A stretch of DNA of 52,178 nucleotides, taken from contig JAGCZA010000139.1 of the NCBI GenBank assembly GCA_017960525.1, positions 1-52,178 on the forward strand, written 5' to 3'. Under the pieces are notes generated by a model. That model made no database searches. It had not been told where the DNA came from and saw nothing but the letters and a program-made list of their open reading frames with translations. Below, in pieces: positions 4,757-33,860 of the stretch. The translations under genes and the position numbers were made by a program. The DNA comes from Prevotella sp. Lineage in GTDB: Bacteria; Bacteroidota; Bacteroidia; Bacteroidales; Bacteroidaceae. Every line of letters begins with the position of its first letter. The stretch's first letter is position 1.

Positions 4757-4844
4757 TTTATTTTGGTTCGTCCTAACTGGTAGTTTGGTTCGTCCAAACT
4801 CCCACTTTGGTTCGTCCAAACTGATAGTTTGGTTCGTCCAAATT
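4757..4844 (-). repeat. 22-bp tandem palindrome array, 4 units
   Basis: Four copies of a unit that reads AGTTTGGACGAACCAAAC plus four variable bases on the minus strand. The GGTTCGT cores start at 4765, 4787, 4809 and 4831, an exact 22-bp period. The array fills the whole gap between the aminotransferase stop (4846-4848) and the helicase ATG (4754-4756). The unit next to the helicase has the variant GTTAGGACGAACC, the same end variant as in the array at 33.8 kb. The core palindrome is GTTTGG-ACGAA-CCAAAC. Confidence 0.95.
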
Positions 4845-6193: not shown

Positions 6194-7144
6194 TTACTGA
6201 ATTCTGCTGCCGTAAAAGATGCTGAGACAAATGGTTGCCACTACCACAGATATGAAGAAGAGAACAAAAATGCAGATGAGCGAGGCTACCACGTTGATGA
6301 ACGTGCGCACCCAGGAGTAGCCGGAAAGTTGTTTCAGCGGAATGATGGTGAACGCATACAAACACGTTTCGAGAACATCGTTTTTGATGCACAGCAAGCC
6401 AAGAGGCATCATCAGTATGGTCTGCATACTGGTGATGTAGACCATAGAGACGAAAAACTCAGGGTAGTGCAAATCGGGAATGGCCGGACATTGCCGGAAC
6501 AACAGGTAGAGCGGCAGAGATAAAATCAGCAACCCGGCCAGCAAAAAGATGTTCTGGTGGTCGAGTATGAAAGAAAACACCCGGCTGGCCGTCTTGAAAA
6601 AGAAGTCCGTAATCAGTTCGGCTTTCTTGTCGGCTTCCTGGTCTTCCTCCGTTATTTCGTTATTAGCGTATGCCGCCTCTTCTTCCTGGGCAGGATAAGT
6701 GTTGTCATTATTATACTTTTTGTCATTCAGGCCTGCGGCAAACTTCGCTTTGGCTTCTTCCAGACGGTTCTCGCCCTTGATGTTCAGACCGGAGTCTATC
6801 AGCAGGGAGAGGGCGGTCAGCAGGAAAAACAACTTGAAGGGCGGGAAGTAGGCCATCTGCATACCCATAATGTAGTCGCGAATCATATAGCCTGGACGCA
6901 GTACCAGGTCGCGCAAGGTGCGGAACATACCCCGATTGCCCAGACCCCAGACGTCGAGGAAGTTCAGAAAAGTGGCTTTCATAGAGTAGCGGCCCAGGCG
7001 GGCCGACTGGCCGCAGCGCGGACAATAGTTGCCACGAAAGTGCGTGCCACAGGTGGAGCAGTCGTGCTCCTCGTCACCTATTTCTGCCACGCGATAGGGC
7101 TGCTCTTGCCAATGTCGGAAGGCGACGTAACGTTCCTTGTTCAT
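6194..7144 (-). CDS. DUF3667 family membrane protein
   Basis: Protein of 316 residues typical of the uncharacterised Bacteroidetes DUF3667 family. An N-terminal zinc-ribbon-like CSTCG...YCPRCGQ motif (around residues 30-45) is followed by the family signature region FLDVWGLGNRGMFRTL and LVLRPGYMIRDYI. About five hydrophobic segments follow (for example FKLFFLLTALSLLI), so it is an inner-membrane protein. The middle is charged (KKYNNDNTYPAQEEE). Its ATG overlaps the stop of the upstream leucine-rich gene by 4 bp (ATGA), so the two are translationally coupled. No biochemical function is known to me. Confidence 0.8.
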   Translation of the reverse strand: MNKERYVAFRHWQEQPYRVAEIGDEEHDCSTCGTHFRGNYCPRCGQSARLGRYSMKATFLNFLDVWGLGNRGMFRTLRDLVLRPGYMIRDYIMGMQMAYFPPFKLFFLLTALSLLIDSGLNIKGENRLEEAKAKFAAGLNDKKYNNDNTYPAQEEEAAYANNEITEEDQEADKKAELITDFFFKTASRVFSFILDHQNIFLLAGLLILSLPLYLLFRQCPAIPDLHYPEFFVSMVYITSMQTILMMPLGLLCIKNDVLETCLYAFTIIPLKQLSGYSWVRTFINVVASLICIFVLFFISVVVATICLSIFYGSRIQ

Positions 7145-9696: not shown

Positions 9697-11832
9697 TTAG
9701 TAGCCGGGGTTCTGCCAGGCTTTCTTCTGCTCGGCGCTCAGGTTGGAGCCGTCGCTGTTCTGCAGGGCATCGATGAAGGCCTGCGGAATGGGGCGCAACT
9801 CGTGCTTGTTGGCGGTGATGTTCTTGGCTTCGGGGTTGAAAGCCTTGGCACGCTTGATGAGCAGGCCTGCGCGGCTGAGTTCCTCCCAGCGGTTCCACTC
9901 GCCGAGGCACTCGCGGGTGCGCTCGTTGAAGATGAAGTTCAGCATACGGTCGTAGTTGCTGGTGGCTCCGATGGCGGCCAGGATGGCTTCGTCCTCCTCG
10001 GGAAGTTGTGTGTAACTGGCTATCTGGAGGTTGGAGGCAGCAGTGGTAGGCTCGATGCCGGTTGAGAGGTAGTAGGTGTTCTTGTGCTGGTGCGAAGCGT
10101 AGTAAGCCTCGGTCATGGTGAGGGTCTTACCAGCGCCGTCCTTGCAGTTCGAGTTGTTTCCGGCGATGCTGTTGTCGGTCAATCCGCCGTCGGCCTTCAG
10201 GAATGCCATTGAGCCGTCGGTGTAGTAACTGCGGTCTTCGCCGTCCTTCCATTGGGCGCGTGCGCGGAGCACATTGACGGTGGCGATGGCGTCCTGGTAC
10301 TTCTCCAGTCGCACTTGTGCCTCGGCTTTGACGAGGTAGGTCTCGCCTGTGCGGGCCATGATGACGTCGCGGTGGGCGTCGCCCTTCTCAGCCGTGCGGC
10401 TGCCGTCGGCGGTCTTGTTGATGCCGCAGAAGACATTGCTGGTAGCGCTGTTGCCGCTCACGCCGTAGTTGTAGAGCACATACTGGCCGTCCATGAAGAG
10501 TGGGAAGGCGTTGGGCACCCACTTGCCTGTCTCAGGATTGATGAAGGTGTGGTCCTGTCCGCCGCGTCCGAAGGTGCCATAAGGCTCACCGTCGAAGCGA
10601 TGGTCGCTCTTCTTGTTGAGGATGAAGATGCAGCCCTGGTCGCCGATGGTGGGCACCTGGTCGGCGGTGAAGCCGTACTTGTCCATCACGGCCTCGACAG
10701 TCATCTGCTGGTTGTTCAGTCCATAGACGGTCTTGAAGGTCTTCCACATACGGGCGTCGTTCACGTTGTCGAAGGTGGAGTAGGTGTACTCCGTGGGACG
10801 GCAGCGCTGGAAGTCCATTTCGCCGATGTAGGCACCGCGCTTGATCCATCCGCCTGAGAAGTTGGAGAACTGGGGCGAGAAGTAGTTGTAGGTGCGGTTG
10901 CCGAAGCGTCCCTGTGTGGTGGCGTCGCCGTTGTGCTCTGCGGCCATCAGGATTTCAGGATTTGCCTCGTTGGGGCAGTTGATGCCCGTCCAGTTGGCGT
11001 AGAGGTCGCTGTAGTTGGCGGCCAGCGGGCAGGCGGCGATGACCTCGTCGCAGAGGGCGATGACGCGGTTCATGTCGGTGGTCTTGTCGTAGCCCTTGTT
11101 CCAGTCATTGCAACGCTCCGACTGGCGGAAGAGCAGGGCCTTGGCCAGGAAGTGGGCGGCGGTGTACTTTGTCCACGTGCCGTTGCCGCGCCATTTGTCG
11201 GTGGGCAGCAACTTGTAGGCCTGCTCCAGGTCGGCGATGACCTGGTTCAGCGTCTCCTCGGCTGTAGAGCGGGTGTAGTTTTTCTTCACCTCGCCGTTGG
11301 CCGGTTCGGTCTGCAGGACTACGCCACCATACTGTGCGAACAGGCGGTAGTAGTTGTAGCCGCGCAGGAAGTAGGCTTCGCCCATTGCCTTGTTGCGGCT
11401 GTCCTCGTCGGCCACCATCGAGGCTTTCGAGATGACGAGGTTGGCAGTTGAGATGCCGTAGTACATCTGGTTCCACAGGGCCGATACGGGCGGGCAGTTG
11501 TTGTTAGGTGCACCCAGGGCCTTGGTGAAGTCGAGGGCGTTGAGGTTGTTATCATAGGTGTTCCAGATGTCCGACGTGTTGTCGGCACCTGTTGTGAACT
11601 CGTCGCATCCGTAGAGTGTGATGCCGTAGGCCCACTCATAGCCAAAGTGCCAGCGGATGTTGCCATAGAGTCCGGCGGCCATCTTCAGTGCGCCGTCCTC
11701 GGTCTCCAGCAGTGCGTCGGTGTAAAGGTGTCCGGCATCCTCCTTAAGGAAGTCATCGCCGCAGGAGGTCATCCCCCCGAGGGTGAGCATCGACAGTGCA
11801 CCGCAAATTAATTTGCTATTGAAATATCTCAT
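9697..11832 (-). CDS. SusD/RagB-family outer-membrane lipoprotein
   Basis: A 711-residue surface substrate-binding lipoprotein, partner of the SusC-like transporter encoded just upstream. The signal peptide ends in a lipobox MTSC with the acylated Cys at 24. The TPR-like SusD core is visible: an N-terminal helix region with YFLRGYNYYRLFAQYGGVVL, the loop with the TAEETLNQVIADLEQAY motif, and the C-terminal FNERTRECLGEWNRWEELSR and NPGY end that are hallmarks of the family. It is on the long side for a SusD (500-700). No glycoside hydrolase or regulator is adjacent, so the substrate is unknown. Confidence 0.93.
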   Translation of the reverse strand: MRYFNSKLICGALSMLTLGGMTSCGDDFLKEDAGHLYTDALLETEDGALKMAAGLYGNIRWHFGYEWAYGITLYGCDEFTTGADNTSDIWNTYDNNLNALDFTKALGAPNNNCPPVSALWNQMYYGISTANLVISKASMVADEDSRNKAMGEAYFLRGYNYYRLFAQYGGVVLQTEPANGEVKKNYTRSTAEETLNQVIADLEQAYKLLPTDKWRGNGTWTKYTAAHFLAKALLFRQSERCNDWNKGYDKTTDMNRVIALCDEVIAACPLAANYSDLYANWTGINCPNEANPEILMAAEHNGDATTQGRFGNRTYNYFSPQFSNFSGGWIKRGAYIGEMDFQRCRPTEYTYSTFDNVNDARMWKTFKTVYGLNNQQMTVEAVMDKYGFTADQVPTIGDQGCIFILNKKSDHRFDGEPYGTFGRGGQDHTFINPETGKWVPNAFPLFMDGQYVLYNYGVSGNSATSNVFCGINKTADGSRTAEKGDAHRDVIMARTGETYLVKAEAQVRLEKYQDAIATVNVLRARAQWKDGEDRSYYTDGSMAFLKADGGLTDNSIAGNNSNCKDGAGKTLTMTEAYYASHQHKNTYYLSTGIEPTTAASNLQIASYTQLPEEDEAILAAIGATSNYDRMLNFIFNERTRECLGEWNRWEELSRAGLLIKRAKAFNPEAKNITANKHELRPIPQAFIDALQNSDGSNLSAEQKKAWQNPGY

Positions 11833-11919: not shown

Positions 11920-14900
11920 TTAGAAGTCTACGCTCAGACCCACGGTGAAGCCACGGTTGTAGTAGGTGGCGCCAGTGTCGAGGTCCATGAAGTCAACCGA
12001 TGTGTAGAGCATGCCCAGGTTCTTTCCCTGCACATAGATTTTGGCGCCCTCGATGCCCAGAGACTTGCAGATGCTCTTGTCGAAGTTGTAGCCCAGAGAG
12101 AGGTTGCGCACCTTGATGAACGAGGCGTCTTGGAAACCGAGCAGAGCGGCCTTCTTGTCGCCACCGCCGGTGCTGTAGATAGGCTTCTGCCAGTCGGCAC
12201 CTGTGTTCGACGGTGTCCAGTAACTGATTTCGCGCTGCTGGTACATACCCAACTGGCCTTCGCCGCCGGTGTTGATCATATACTTGAAGCGGCCCTGCAG
12301 TTCAAGCGTCAGTTCGAAGCCCTTCCACGACAGGGTATTGGTCCATCCTGCGGTCAGGCGCGGGTTCTGGTTACCTAGGATAACGCGGTCTTCGTCGTTA
12401 ATCTTGTAGTCGCCGTTCTGGTCGACGGGGCGCACCATACCAGCGGTGAAGGCTTCGCCGTTCTCGTTGAACTTGGCCATCTCGGCGGCGTCGCTCTCCT
12501 GCCAGAGGCCGGCGTTCTCATAGCCGTAGAACACAGCGATGCTCTCGCCGATGAACCAGGCGTTGTTGATGTCGTCTTCCTTGCCGTTGGCCAGTTCCTC
12601 AATCTTGTCCTTCTGCCAAGCAAGGTTCAGGTTCGACTGCCACATGAAGTCCTTGGTCAGCACGGGGATGGTGTTCAACGTCAATTCAATACCCTTGTTC
12701 GAGGTCTTACCCACATTGTCCATCATGGCGGGATAGCCTGAGAGCGAGGGCACTGTCATCAGCATGAGCAGGTCTTTCGTGGTCGAGGTGTACATATCAA
12801 TGGTACCGCCGATGCGACCCTTCAGGAAACTGAAGTCGATACCGAGGTTCCACTGGGTGGTCTTCTCCCACGACAGGTTCTTGTTCGGCATCTGGTTCTG
12901 GCTGTTGCTATAGTAAGGCTCGTTGGTGACGAGAATCTGGCTGTTGCCGCTGCTGAAGGGCATCCAGTATGAACTGATGACGCCAAGCGTGCCGTAAGGT
13001 GATACGGCCGAGTTGCCGGTCACACCCACACCCAGGCGGAGTTTCAACTGGTCGAGCCAGGAAACATCTTTCAGGAAGTCTTCCTGCTCCATACGCCAGC
13101 CGAGTGCCATTGAGGGGAAGAAGTCCCACTTGTTGCCTTCGGCCAGTACGCTGCTGCCATCCCAACGGGCAGAGGCAGTGAGCAGATAGCGGTCTTTCCA
13201 AGAGTAGTTGATGCGTGCCATATACGACGACAGGGCGTATTCGCTCAGGCCTGTGCCCATTGAAGCCTTGTTGGCCGACTCGGTGATGTCGATACTGCCC
13301 ATATTGTTCCAAAGGAATGTAGCCAGAGGAATGCGCTCACCGTGCATATTGCTGTTCTCGGTGTTGCTCTTCGAGGCCGACTGCAGTAGGGTAAGGCCGA
13401 AACTGTGGTCGCCCACCTCTTTATTATATAGAATCATATTGTCGAGCGTCCAGGCGAAGTTGCGGGTGTCGTTGCGGGTGGCATAGTTGTTGCCGCCACC
13501 GCGTACTGCCGACGAAGCGTCGATGAAGATGCCCTGACGGTAGAAGCGGAAGTCGGGGCCGAACTGCAACTTGTACTGCAGACCCTCCAGGGGCTCCCAA
13601 ATCTTGCCGAAGTCAACCTGTCCGTAGAAACTGCCCAGTGCACGGAACATCTGACGGTTATCGTTTGACTTGTTCCACTCGTCCATCACGGTATAGGTGT
13701 TGGTCACCGAGCCGCCAGGCGTGAGGATGATGTTGCCGTCGTTGTCGTAGGGCAGGGTGTAGCGCAGAATCTGCTTGGCGGCACCGTAGATGTCGGTGGG
13801 GCCGCTGTTGCTGCTCTGGCCGGTGCGTGAGAAACCGTACTTCAGTTCGCCGAAACTGACATTGAGTGAGCCGCCGGCCTTGAACCAAGGCTTGGCCTGA
13901 ATGTCGGCTGTGGCAGAGAGGTTGTAACGCTCAAATTGCTGTCCTTTCTGCGTTCCCTTGTTGTTGAGATAGCCGAAAGAGACGCTTCCCTTCATATTCT
14001 TCGTACCGCCGCGTGCGCTGATGGTGTGTGAATGGGTGACGCCCGTGCGGGTGACAAAGTCGGTCCAGTCGGTGTCGGTCACCTTTGAGCCGTCCCAGGT
14101 TCCGCTGGCCCAGCCTTTCTCAATGTTGGCCCAGGCCACTTCGTCGCCCGAGAAGAAACTCTTGTCCTGCTCCAGCGTGGGCTGGTCGCCAGGAGTGTAC
14201 TTGTCGGGGGCTGAGTTGTAGTATGCCCAGCGGCGCCAGGTGATATAGTCGCTGGCATTCATGGCCGGACTCTTGTCGACAATCTTCTCGAAGGTGACAG
14301 TACCGTTGTAACTCAACTGCATCTTGCCCTCCTGGCCGCGCTTGGTGGTGATGAGCACCACACCGTTGGCACCACGGCTACCGTAGATGGCCGTCGAAGA
14401 GGCGTCCTTCAGAATGTCAATGGCCTCGATGTCGCGGGGGTTCAGCGACTCAATGCCGCCTGCCTGAAGGGGCACACCGTCGACCACATAGAGAGGGGCC
14501 GAAGAGGCGTTGAGTGAACGTGTGCCACGAATCATGATGTTGCCGATGGTACCAGGACGCTCGCTGGTGGTGATATCCACACCGGCAGCCTTGCCCTGCA
14601 GGGCCTCGAAGGCGTTGCTGACGGGCTTGGCGTTCAGTTCCTTCTCACCGACACGGGTCAGGGCACCGGTGACATCGCTCTTGCGCTGCACGCCGTAACC
14701 GACCACCACCACTTCGTCGAGCAGTTGCTTGTCTTCCTCAAGGGTGACGCTGAAGTTGCTCTTGCCACTCAGAGGGAGGGTCTGGGTGCGATAGCCCACA
14801 TAAGACACAACCAGGCTGCCATTGGCTGGGGCCTTCTCAATGCTGAACTTGCCATTGAGGTCGGTCACTGCACCATTTGACGTGCCTTTCACCATGACGC

Positions 14901-19552: not shown

Positions 19553-20602
19553 TTAGAAGTATTTTGTGATTCGGGCGTTGGCGAAGGTGTTCATCTCGTT
19601 CATCATACGGACGGCGCTATCGACAATGGGGAAGGCACAGAGGGCGCCGGTTCCCTCGCCGAGACGGAGACCGAGGTTGAGCAAGGGTTTTGCCCCGACA
19701 ATGTCGAGCATCCGGCGGTGGCCGCTTTCGTCGCCGCAATGGGTGAAAATCATGTAATCCTGCACTGCGGGATAAAGGCGTATGGCCCCGATGGCGCAGG
19801 CAGTCATAATGAACCCGTCTATTAATATAATAAGGTGTTGCTCGGCAGCGCGGAGCATTGCGCCGATGGCAGCAATCATTTCGAAGCCGCCGAAGAATTG
19901 GAGGGGTGAGAGGTGAGAGGTGTGAGGTGAGAGTTCGGAATTGTAGCGTTTTAGTGCGGCAGCAAGCACTTCACGCTTATGGCGTATGCCAGGCGTGTCG
20001 AGGCCTGCGCCTGCGCCGATGCACTCGTCGAGGGGGATGCCGCCGAAGAGGTGCATCCAGATGCTGGATGGCGACGTGTTGCCAATGCCCATCTCGCCGA
20101 TGCTCAGGATGCGGCAGCCTTCGGCGATGCAGTTGTTCACTAGGTCGCTGCCTACCAGGATGGCAAGGTCGAACTCCTCTTCGCTCATGGCTGGTTCATA
20201 GAGGAAGTTCTTGGTTCCACGGGCGATTTTGCGGTCGATGATACCTGGAACGGAAGACAAGTCATAGTCCACTCCGACATCGACGATGCGGAGCTTGAAG
20301 CCGTGCTGCCGGCAGAATATGTTCACGCCGCCGCCGCCACGCGTGAAGTTAATCATCTGCTGCCAAGTCACTTCGCGGGGCGACACGCTGACGCCCTCAC
20401 GCTCGATGCCGTGGTCACCGCCAAGCAGCAGATGGCAGGGATGCGCCAACGACGGTTCCAGGGTCTGCTGGATGAGGCACACTTGCATGGCCAACTCCTC
20501 CAGCCTGCCTAAGGAGCCTTTCGGCTTGTTCAGGTTGTCGATTTTCTCTTGTATCGCCGCCTGCATTGAGCGGTCGGTGGGTAGGATATTGAAAGTTCTC
20601 AT
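19553..20602 (-). CDS. cobT: Nicotinate-nucleotide--dimethylbenzimidazole phosphoribosyltransferase CobT
   Basis: A 349-residue enzyme that makes alpha-ribazole phosphate, the lower-ligand precursor of cobalamin. Motifs are NKPKGSLGRLEELA, LLGGDHGI, TRGGGGVNIFCRQ, GEMGIGNTSPSS, GAGAGLDTPG and the C-terminal PLLNLGLRLGEGTGA with the catalytic Glu region. A longer open frame reaches 20941, but its extra N-terminus is the shadow of cobU, so the ATG at 20602, which overlaps the cobU stop by 4 bp, is correct. A short insert lies at residues 223-234. It is the last gene of cobS-cobU-cobT. Confidence 0.95.
   Translation of the reverse strand: MRTFNILPTDRSMQAAIQEKIDNLNKPKGSLGRLEELAMQVCLIQQTLEPSLAHPCHLLLGGDHGIEREGVSVSPREVTWQQMINFTRGGGGVNIFCRQHGFKLRIVDVGVDYDLSSVPGIIDRKIARGTKNFLYEPAMSEEEFDLAILVGSDLVNNCIAEGCRILSIGEMGIGNTSPSSIWMHLFGGIPLDECIGAGAGLDTPGIRHKREVLAAALKRYNSELSPHTSHLSPLQFFGGFEMIAAIGAMLRAAEQHLIILIDGFIMTACAIGAIRLYPAVQDYMIFTHCGDESGHRRMLDIVGAKPLLNLGLRLGEGTGALCAFPIVDSAVRMMNEMNTFANARITKYF
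19901..19936 (-). repeat. Short in-frame repeat insert in cobT
   Basis: The coding strand reads CTCTCACCTCACACC then TCTCACCTCTCACC, a tandem purine/pyrimidine-biased repeat that encodes ELSPHTSHLSPL. The same type of peptide (HFSPLTSQ) is encoded by the palindromic insert in ispG, so both probably belong to one repeat family. Confidence 0.6.
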
Positions 20603-21111
20603 CTTTTTATTGTCATAGGGATGCCTGAGACCATCAGGATGACTTCGTCGGAACGGGCGGCGATGTACTGGTTCATCCACCCTTGCAAGTCGGTAAAATG
20701 GCGTTGGAGGGCATTGTCGCTGACACCACCGAGGCCAATTTCGTTGGTAACGAAAATGAAGGTGGCATCGTGGGCGGTGAAGGCGTCGAACTCGGTTTTC
20801 GCTTGGGCGAGCGACTTGTTTACGTCTGATTCGTTGGCAAAGAAGAAGTTGGTGAGCCACAGGGTGATGCAATCGATGACGGCGACGCGCCCGGTGAGGT
20901 TGTGGCGGGAGAGATGCAGTTCCTCCTCGATGTTCGTCCATTGCGGGCCTCGGCGCTCCTGATGACGGCGTACACGCTCACGGAACTCGTCGTCCCAGAT
21001 GTGGGCGGTGGCAACGTAGACAGGGTTCGGACTCAGGCTTAGAGCCAGTTCCTCAGCCTTTTTGCTCTTGCCGGAGCGCTGGCCGCCAGTAATCAGAATG
21101 ATTCTTCTCAT
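20599..21111 (-). CDS. cobU: Adenosylcobinamide kinase/adenosylcobinamide-phosphate guanylyltransferase CobU
   Basis: A 170-residue bifunctional enzyme that phosphorylates adenosylcobinamide and adds GMP to give AdoCbi-GDP. P-loop GGQRSGKS lies at 9-16; YVATAHIWDDEFRERVRRHQ carries the His that takes GMP, followed by VIDCITLWLTN and FVTNEIGLGGV. The ATG overlaps the cobS stop by 4 bp (ATGA), and the stop overlaps the cobT ATG in the same way. Confidence 0.95.
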   Translation of the reverse strand: MRRIILITGGQRSGKSKKAEELALSLSPNPVYVATAHIWDDEFRERVRRHQERRGPQWTNIEEELHLSRHNLTGRVAVIDCITLWLTNFFFANESDVNKSLAQAKTEFDAFTAHDATFIFVTNEIGLGGVSDNALQRHFTDLQGWMNQYIAARSDEVILMVSGIPMTIKR

Positions 21112-21923
21112 AGGGCGCAGACAACAAGGTAGACGGTGAGTTCAACCAGCAGGCAGACGGCACCGCAACAGTCGCCAGTATAGCCGCGCAGCCGCCTCCA
21201 GATGAACAGATAGAGAAAATACATAACAAGGGCGGGAATGAAGAGAACCATGTCCCATCGGAGGCCCGTAATCCAGAGGAACCCCGCCATCGGCAACAGG
21301 CCCTGCACGGCGAGGCTGATGCCAGCCACCGTCGAAGGCCTGCGGTAAACAGTGCGGGCCTTCGCTTCGTCCTCGCGGCGGGCGTATGGCATCATCATCA
21401 CCAGTTGCGCCGTCACCATACGGGCGAAGGGCGTGGCGGCGAGTATGGCAAGTGCGGCCATTCCCCTCCCATCCACGGGGAAGGGTAGGGGTGGGGTCTC
21501 ACCATCGGCGATGGCACAAAGCGAAACGGTGAGCAGCAGCAGATAGACGATGAGGGCGAGCACACCGTAGGTGCCGATGTGCGAGTCCTTCATGATGGCG
21601 AGGATGCGCTCGCGGTCGGTGCCCCCTCCGCCGAAGCCGTCGAAGAAGTCGGCCAGCCCGTCCTCGTGGAGAGCACCAGTAATGAGCATCCGCACAACGA
21701 CAGCCAGCACAACGGCGACAGCCAGCGGCATCACCATACTGCCGAAATAGAGCGTTGCGGCCATAGCCCCCCCCGTGAGCCAGCCCGTCAGCGGCCAGTA
21801 TTCCACTACGGAGTCGTAAGCCTGTTTTGGCGGCTGCCGCATGCGCCAGAACGGCAAACGAGTGAAGAAAATGAATGCCGCCAGCAGACGGTCGTACCAT
21901 CGTGTTTGGTCAATTGCTATCAT
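21108..21923 (-). CDS. cobS: Adenosylcobinamide-GDP ribazoletransferase CobS
   Basis: A 271-residue inner-membrane enzyme that joins AdoCbi-GDP to alpha-ribazole in the last step of cobalamin assembly. FFTRLPF at the N-terminus, YWPLTGWLTGG, TGALHEDGLADFFDGFGGG (metal-binding Asp cluster) and MKDSHIGTYGVLAL are all family motifs, with several membrane helices. Residues 142-154 are a repeat-derived insert in a loop. It is the first gene of cobS-cobU-cobT. Its leader is about 175 nt and contains the six-unit 22-bp array, which ends about 7 bp before the ATG. Confidence 0.94.
   Translation of the reverse strand: MIAIDQTRWYDRLLAAFIFFTRLPFWRMRQPPKQAYDSVVEYWPLTGWLTGGAMAATLYFGSMVMPLAVAVVLAVVVRMLITGALHEDGLADFFDGFGGGGTDRERILAIMKDSHIGTYGVLALIVYLLLLTVSLCAIADGETPPLPFPVDGRGMAALAILAATPFARMVTAQLVMMMPYARREDEAKARTVYRRPSTVAGISLAVQGLLPMAGFLWITGLRWDMVLFIPALVMYFLYLFIWRRLRGYTGDCCGAVCLLVELTVYLVVCAL
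21462..21500 (-). repeat. Short in-frame repeat insert in cobS
   Basis: 39 bp that encodes ETPPLPFPVDGRG. The DNA is C-rich then G-rich and partly self-complementary (CCCTTCCCC, GTGGAT, GGGAGGGGA). This proline-rich loop interrupts a hydrophobic region and looks inserted. Confidence 0.55.
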
Positions 21924-21929
21924 AATTTA

Positions 21930-22061
21930 TTGTTGAACGAACCTGTTTGAAAGTTTGAACGAACCTGTTTGAAAGTTTGGACGAACCTGTTTGAAAGTTT
22001 GGACGAACCAAACCAGGAGTTTGGACGAACCAAACTGTGAGTTTGGACGAACCAAATTTTT
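21930..22061. repeat. 22-bp tandem palindrome array, 6 units
   Basis: The core ACGAACC recurs at 21937, 21959, 21981, 22003, 22025 and 22047, an exact 22-bp period. Units 4-6 match GTTTGGACGAACCAAA. Units 1-3 have the variant right half ACGAACCTGTTTGAAA, and units 1-2 also have GAACG for GGACG. The array lies in the predicted leader of cobSUT (minus) and upstream of the atp promoter (plus). The whole intergenic stretch 21924-22235 thus holds this array and two divergent promoters; I see no cobalamin riboswitch in it. Confidence 0.95.
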
Positions 22062-22106
22062 AGCCTCCAGTTTCAGCAATAGACTTTCCTGAAGTTTTTC
22101 AGGCCG

Positions 22107-22138
22107 CAAAAGTACTAAGAAAAAATGAAAAGGCCAAA
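22107..22138 (-). promoter_or_regulatory. Promoter of cobS-cobU-cobT
   Basis: Minus strand: TTTG (22138-22135), 20 bp, TACTTTTG (22114-22107). Predicted start near 22100. The transcript would carry the entire 22-bp repeat array in its leader. Confidence 0.7.
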
Positions 22139-22165
22139 CTCTTTTGAAAAAAGTGCAGTAATTAT

Positions 22166-22196
22166 TTTGCAGATTCGGAAAAACTTAGTACCTTTG
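22166..22196 (+). promoter_or_regulatory. Promoter of the ATP synthase operon
   Basis: TTTG (22166-22169), 19 bp, TACCTTTG (22189-22196) followed by CACAC. Predicted start near 22203, with a leader of about 33 nt rich in A before atpD. Confidence 0.85.
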
Positions 22197-22232
22197 CACA
22201 CAGTAAAAAAACAAAAACTTATAATCATTTAG

Positions 22233-23762
<1,530 letters not shown>

Positions 23763-33794: not shown

Positions 33795-33860
33795 AGTTTG
33801 GACGAACCAAACCAATAGTTTGGACGAACCAAACTCCCAGTTAGGACGAACCAAAATTAT
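33795..33860 (+). repeat. 22-bp tandem palindrome array, 3 units
   Basis: ACGAACC cores at 33802, 33824 and 33846, exactly 22 bp apart. Two units are perfect GTTTGGACGAACCAAAC; the last is GTTAGGACGAACCAAAA, the same terminal variant as in the array at 4.8 kb. It lies between two genes for secreted proteins, 56 bp before the next start codon. The rest of the 166-bp gap is A+T-rich with no promoter I can defend. Confidence 0.95.

Follow-up and report, generated by a model that had tools for sequence, protein, structure and literature searches.

A row of six 22-bp palindromic units (positions 21930–22061, + strand) separates cobSUT from the ATP synthase operon in the window, by which we mean the whole 52,178-nucleotide stretch of Prevotella DNA that was analysed, and its position raises the question of whether such an array serves the genes beside it or belongs to something larger. 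The six ACGAACC cores, at 21937, 21959, 21981, 22003, 22025 and 22047, keep the exact 22-bp period that the original prediction had described: self-identity at 22 bp over 21930–22061 is 0.84, as against a mean of 0.37 and a maximum of 0.49 for the best of periods 10–44 in 1000 dinucleotide shuffles. Units 4 and 5 match the near-palindrome GTTTGG-ACGAA-CCAAAC perfectly and unit 6 departs from it in a terminal T, these three best-preserved units (21997–22057, +) being joined by the 5-nt linkers CAGGA and TGTGA, and units 1–3 carry the altered right half (CCTGTTTGAA) noted at the outset. To the left, all on the − strand, lie cobS (Pfam CobS; 21108–21923), whose start codon is about 7 bp off the edge of the array, cobU (Pfam CobU; 20599–21111) and a cobT-type phosphoribosyltransferase gene (Pfam DBI_PRT; 19553–20941), which probably starts further downstream than its first listed start codon suggests. 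To the right, the ATP synthase operon opens with a gene (22236–23762, +) that encodes an alpha/beta-family subunit (Pfam ATP-synt_ab) and is here named atpD.

The array abuts the start of cobS, and it had been proposed to be transcribed as the leader of cobSUT and to regulate that operon, or perhaps atp, as a tandem operator or a leader RNA. The first part of this proposal is plausible. An inverted repeat recognized by eye at 22106–22197 (arms 22106–22119 and 22184–22197) could contain two putative divergent Bacteroidetes-type −7 boxes, which would place the focal array within the cobS leader. The lack of a cobalamin riboswitch before cobS, which had made the array attractive as a substitute, was also borne out, as no Rfam family, that riboswitch included, reached its gathering score in the window. 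No terminator-like site lies within the focal array, and one is found about 40 bp outside it, where 0.7 would be expected by chance.

The focal array is one of many, however, and this dispersal bears on the regulatory part of the proposal. Two further arrays of the same family occur in the window itself and had not been listed: one of four units (about 4761–4843, −) in the short space that separates two called genes of like orientation, and one of three units (33796–33856, +) that begins 46 bp past a stop codon (33749). The genome search that had been suggested returned 457 units with at most two mismatches, and 0 for a reversed-pattern control; the exact unit (at most one mismatch) is found in five of 149 genomes, own genome included, and as one copy in each of the other four. 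Within an 813-kb sample of the own genome, window included, a half-site search located 45 arrays, none of which falls within a gene called by our own gene caller. Forty of these have six, seven or eight half-sites, another is no more than a single unit, and most arrays thus consist of three to four units and mostly measure 60–82 bp. As 136 of the 457 units lie in the sample, scaling by unit counts gives an estimate of about 150 arrays genome-wide, and a family found at so many sites does not belong to cobSUT alone. Furthermore, 40 atp-centred stretches from other genomes of the genus all lack a dimer of the focal family; three of them (G156, G231 and G258) have 22-bp arrays with a different sequence no more than 600 bp upstream of atpD. 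On copy number and absence from relatives together we reject regulation specific to cobSUT or atp, and we give next to no credence to the idea that the array is a regulatory element of either operon.

What these many sites have in common is a fixed lattice. Each unit comprises a 17-bp palindrome, GTTTGG-ACGAA-CCAAAC, and a five-base linker, which together set a half-site each 11 bp, with successive half-sites alternating in orientation. The cores read ACGAA or TTCGT, at times both within one array, and the linkers mostly follow T-NNN-A, the common ones forming reverse-complement pairs (TCCCA/TGGGA, TATGA/TCATA, TACCA/TGGTA and TGTGA/TCACA). Among 104 spacings between neighbours (at most 70 bp apart, loosely defined units on either strand), 101 are of 22 bp, two of 44 and one of 29; 103 of them are therefore multiples of 22, even though the 160 units concerned hold 184 mismatches. 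A second 22-bp family in the same genome, TTTGCAGCG-NN-CGCTGCAAA, is represented by two arrays in an autocorrelation scan and occurs at 15 places genome-wide.

The placement of the arrays relative to genes might suggest a role at the level of RNA, in which transcribed stem-loops would terminate transcription or protect the 3′ ends of mRNAs. Where both flanking genes run in the same direction, 24 of 29 arrays are closer to the upstream stop than to the downstream start, and in a separate test of 25 arrays the mean fractional distance from the stop is 0.25 (P = 5e-5). Our home-made gene caller trims some starts, cobS among them, a bias that favours a near-stop outcome, and the comparison was therefore redone with the farthest upstream ATG, whereupon 23 of 29 arrays remained closer to the stop (mean 0.32, P = 0.001). 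These position tests leave out arrays whose flanking genes do not run the same way, together with those that have no more than 20 bp of room (three in the test of 25, three and four in the counts of 29), and three of the 45 arrays fit no gap and were not assigned. The preference for gene starts that a regulatory role had implied is thus absent. Two further observations agree with an RNA-level element: TTTT occurs within 7 nt of 31 of the 90 array ends, where simple arithmetic from 30% T gives a chance expectation of about 3%, and the three arrays of the window fold better than their shuffles on either strand (z from −2.3 to −4.4).

Closer inspection of the same features, however, makes an RNA-level role improbable. 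T-tracts (TTT) are found on the distal side of 14 of the 29 co-directional arrays and on the proximal side of 10, giving no clear downstream bias, and the arrays do not qualify as intrinsic terminators, which are GC-rich hairpins with a T-tract on that side. Their density is also similar between divergent genes (13 arrays, against 22 kb in gaps of 150 bp or more) and between co-directional ones (28 against 44 kb). When the three window arrays are folded as single strands, they form longer, interrupted stems instead of the row of separate hairpins that had been considered, and hairpins would in any case not require a fixed 22-bp spacing. Substitutions in the stems are almost never compensated. 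The inner stems of the 45 arrays comprise 749 consensus pairs, 81 with a one-sided change that breaks the pair, 18 with a one-sided change to G-T, three broken by changes on both sides and one still paired after changes on both (103 non-consensus positions in all), and the outer stems comprise 585 consensus pairs, 70 broken on one side, 11 one-sided G-T pairs and none changed on both sides. Because compensatory changes are nearly absent, it is the sequence of the half-sites that is kept and not their pairing, and selection for an RNA hairpin is rejected on the same ground.

High-copy palindromes outside genes also call to mind REP elements and their composite BIME clusters, which are mobilized in known cases by Y1 (RAYT-type) transposases. 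The resemblance to these elements, which are treated in PMC3733652 and PMC6006769, extends to intergenic palindromic units in high copy, clustered, with few kinds of linker and unevenly distributed between species; with 457 units, and with every one of the 45 sampled arrays lying clear of called genes, the present family answers to that description. The arrays differ in having a palindrome of 17–19 bp on a rigid 22-bp lattice, and neither units nor arrays end in a constant GTAG or CGTC tag, the letters CGTC standing inside the loop. A cognate, REP-flanked transposase is likewise missing. The own genome does hold one Y1_Tnp-like frame, but without an ACGAACC core in the surrounding 3 kb, and among 26 chosen genomes Y1_Tnp was matched in 12, six of the 12 that are array-rich and six of the 14 others. 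Array-rich genomes lacking a match (six of 12, against eight of the 14 others) include G348, G264, G249 and G046, which are 98–99% complete. A Y1 transposase therefore does not track the arrays, RAYT mobilization is not supported, and the reading of the arrays as REP elements moved in this way is largely refuted, so that we consider it very improbable. In anatomy, and by analogy, the arrays are BIME clusters of the enterobacterial kind, smaller, set on a two-turn lattice and devoid of the tag and the transposase that define REPs.

Other known repeats match in part. The BrickBuilt MITEs of Porphyromonas gingivalis are described as species-restricted intergenic elements of 23-nt tandem repeats, with leader and tail segments, IS5-like terminal inverted repeats, lengths of 84–991 nt, 1 to 22.8 units and 19 copies, and 22- and 23-nt tandem repeats are mentioned for strain W83 (PMC4596501). 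The likeness lies in the order (Bacteroidales), the intergenic location and a nearly equal period of direct repeats (22 versus 23 nt), and the differences in size (mostly 60–82 bp, three to four units), in number (an estimated 150 arrays) and in the lack of a common leader or tail, none of which was found around the arrays. Terminal inverted repeats were not found either, the outward flanks giving 361 matches against a shuffled mean of 376. Viral contigs held no match to the exact pattern, and plasmids none with the low-complexity filter on. The short CGTC-tagged palindromic repeats of some Bacteroidetes, reported to have a loop of 4–5 nt and no link to a transposase (PMC3733652), carry CGTC at one end and rarely cluster, whereas here CGTC lies inside the loop and clusters are the rule; several other 22-bp families lack CGTC, and two others contain those letters. 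The sequence TTTT(C/T)AGCCT stands 3′ of several arrays (on contigs C6, C18 and C32, and at window position 22058) as a possible common end or target tag.

A closer geometric parallel is offered by plasmid iterons, direct repeats about two helical turns apart that bind protein in phase at one origin beside the Rep gene; the spacing is comparable, although iterons are confined to that origin and the arrays are dispersed. As in phased operators or the sites of nucleoid proteins, both half-site sequence and helical spacing are conserved in the arrays, with ascertainment and gene conversion as caveats. A search of the published literature, with subscription papers mostly outside its reach, returned no paper recognizable as describing these arrays.

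Whether the lattice is particular to this genome was approached through its relatives. A looser pattern, GTTTG-N7-CAAAC-N5-GTTTG-N7-CAAAC is found, with at most two mismatches allowed, in 86 of the 398 genomes from the genus (the own one among them) and at least 10 times in 23; the counts include 297 for the own genome, 99 for G451, 88 for G348, 66 for G200 and 46 for G356, and the loops differ between genomes. The reversed form of this pattern is not a neutral control, being the identical lattice with long and short spacers swapped, and it matches 34 of the 398 genomes (G203 54 times, G008 41, G249 40), many of them one to three times, so that single matches among the forward 86 are weak evidence. 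A scan of 84,980 species genomes, which may omit the own one, gave six places that match a dimer whose second unit was relaxed; all six belong to rumen Prevotella, in the assemblies RGIG4836, RGIG4792 and RUG13180. A stricter pattern had no match.

The period is more widely distributed than the sequence. When intergenic tandem repeats with a period of at least 15 are counted in the 40 atp-centred stretches from the genus, the peak is at 22 bp (20 arrays), with 10 arrays at 21 bp, two at 20, one at 23 and three at 24; period 14 accounts for another 12 arrays in the genus set. A stricter autocorrelation scan gave six arrays at 22, three at 21 and six at 44, the last being recounts of 22. Counts were small in 20 same-order stretches (two at 22, three at 23), and a small control of 200 kb of Escherichia coli held one array each at 19, 20 and 21. 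Among other genomes there are 22-bp arrays unrelated in sequence to the focal family: CTCCGAGCAGACTGCCACACTT is present in G231 as 53 units (at most three mismatches), and further unrelated 22-bp arrays occur in G441, G200, G258, G336 and others, while that of G156 is limited to four units at one place and is not dispersed. The sequences that would fill the lattice include GTTTGGACGAACCAAAC, CTCCGAGCAGACTGCCACACTT, AGATAAGTGCCACTTATCT, GGAAC...GTTCC and TACCA...TGGTA. A whole-unit dyad test reached P < 0.05 in four of 24 arrays, a weak outcome because loops dilute the signal, and some of the foreign 22-bp arrays may not be palindromic. We put forward as rather doubtful, albeit possible, the generalization that Prevotella genomes share an architectural rule, an 11/22-bp lattice of palindromic half-sites, that each species and family fills with a sequence of its own.

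Several single loci add to the variety of such repeats. Besides the GTTTGG family, G200 and G441 each carry a second, unrelated 22-bp array (GGAAC...GTTCC at 6555–6670 of locus L208, and AGATAAGTGCCACTTATCTCCG at 12814–12876 of L212, respectively). At loci from G190 (L134) and G204 (L135) the 22-bp arrays are related to one another, with half-sites AAAGG and CCTTT, and 20 kb of G204 holds three of them. The whole genome of G059 matches a 20-bp palindrome pattern at 102 places; those among them that were listed are near-perfect copies of TTGGCAGCGGCCGCTGCCAA, and at three places two copies lie 44 bp from each other. In the same-order genome G107, two 23-bp arrays of CTCACAAGTTTGTCAGTTTTTAC lie less than 1.5 kb apart (L148, 8231–8298 and 9647–9736).

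How the arrays come and go can be read from homologous sites. Five arrays of the own genome have alignable flanks in a relative, and at four of these the homologous place is without an array: that at 33796 (in G274 and G431), and those at C59:45475 (G059), C59:248 (G200) and C13:40421 (G356), often with one homologous flank only. The intergenic space homologous to 33796 is about 115 bp shorter in G274 and G431, and too diverged to define a junction; the joined flanks of all 45 arrays, compared with the own sample and the sampled loci of relatives, gave only self-matches across the junction. No clean empty site, in which a target-site duplication would show, came out of these alignments. In the remaining comparison, C13:29656 and positions 9774–9858 of L211 in G451 are both arrays of the focal family in the same orientation before a homologous gene (74% identity), with dissimilar far flanks.

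At closer range the arrays persist. Rapid loss between close strains had been named as an observation that would speak against the proposal, but for 17 of the 20 array places examined in the rumen Prevotella G451 (RGIG4836), the loci sampled from its close relative G200 (RGIG4792) include an orthologous array; the other three (L246, L248 and L217) are possibly missing because G200 is 79% complete and array loci only were compared. With units defined on G451, the 17 pairs differ at 18 of 590 half-site positions (3%), 98 of 1501 positions in non-coding flanks (6.5%), 47 of 413 in loops (11%) and 47 of 210 in linkers (22%), the half-sites thus changing more slowly (P = 0.001) and the linkers faster (P = 1e-11) than the flanks. 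The picture is the same with units defined on G200 (half-sites 20 of 598, P = 0.004). Half-site conservation is partly an effect of ascertainment, as the arrays were found through their half-sites, and gene conversion between arrays could be an alternative keeper of their likeness; called coding sequence, moreover, is no more conserved than the non-coding flanks (811 of 12,052 positions different), which makes both the coding mask and the neutral yardstick rough.

Length changes occur by whole units. Gaps within the paired arrays measure 22 bp, in one piece or as fragments with that total; the exceptions are two 7-base gaps, which appear only with units defined on G200 and look like one replaced stretch. 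A clean one-unit difference is seen in three of 17 pairs, and unit number differs in eight of 17 under a loose unit definition; the local expansion that the changed right halves had hinted at is thus borne out by whole 22-bp differences between two close species. The deficit of other indels in the orthologous pairs is weak when taken alone (0 besides whole units, where 2.2–3.7 are expected). Strong changes affect 23 loops or linkers, of which two are exactly inverted (linker TGGGA to TCCCA in L250, loop CACGGAG to CTCCGTG in L254), and one further loop is one base off an inversion.

Other features of this pair lie at or near the ends of arrays. In L249/L259 homology is lost at the array end, and G451 has about 2.6 kb of extra sequence that starts from a shared array end (L211 9855–12474, compared with L256 960–999 of G200) and contains the gene whose homologue follows array C13:29656 of the own genome; the arrays may mark recombination endpoints. 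Some 15–30 bp past the array at several G451 and G200 loci (L214 1381–1510, L217, L241 and L269) is an inverted-repeat element of about 130 bp, possibly a MITE, with arms that contain GCGGCGAAGCGGCG or GCGACGAAGCGACG.

Either mutation alone sustains these arrays, or something reads them. Under the first alternative they would be a minisatellite without binder or function, its palindromes arising, flipping and multiplying by slippage and template switching at replication forks, its 22-bp step set by the mutational mechanism and its spread due to recombination or some mobilization. The inversions among the 23 changed segments, the whole-unit length changes between orthologues, the absence of an array at four of five places in more distant relatives and the avoidance of the downstream start by co-directional arrays, as if these were merely tolerated, all fit such an account. 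It has more difficulty with half-sites that evolve more slowly than the non-coding flanks while the loops evolve faster, and with a single period shared by unrelated sequences, which demands a physical ruler. We regard it as a somewhat unlikely explanation.

The second alternative, to which we give an even chance, is that the dispersed class of intergenic palindrome arrays to which the focal array belongs is read by a protein as phased double-stranded sites. A fixed lattice, conserved half-sites and free loops are the trace expected of phased binding to double-stranded DNA, and whole-unit changes and loop inversions the trace expected of slippage and template switching at palindromes. In such a mechanism, alternating half-sites GTTTGG and CCAAAC every 11 bp would be read in double-stranded DNA by a putative dimeric protein, whose dimers would sit side by side along one face of the helix, as had been envisaged for the exact phasing at the outset. 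Binding would maintain half-sites and spacing, slippage and template switching within the palindromes would gain, lose or flip segments, and the resulting arrays would be best tolerated behind genes. As the half-sites of other genomes are unrelated, such binding would call for different proteins in different species and families.

Prevotella are among the commonest bacteria of the gut and the rumen, and tandem repeats before one of their genes are, on these findings, no evidence of a private regulatory element. That spacing is kept while sequence varies by species separates the unit from the lattice, two properties that are usually confounded in REP-like elements, and the class thereby offers a direct test of whether the upkeep of repeats depends on a protein that reads phased half-sites or on mutation alone. 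If the shared architectural rule holds, a fast-evolving family of DNA-binding proteins with a conserved cooperative geometry would coat intergenic arrays and shape the chromosome in these bacteria, the sites and the proteins that bind them diverging together.
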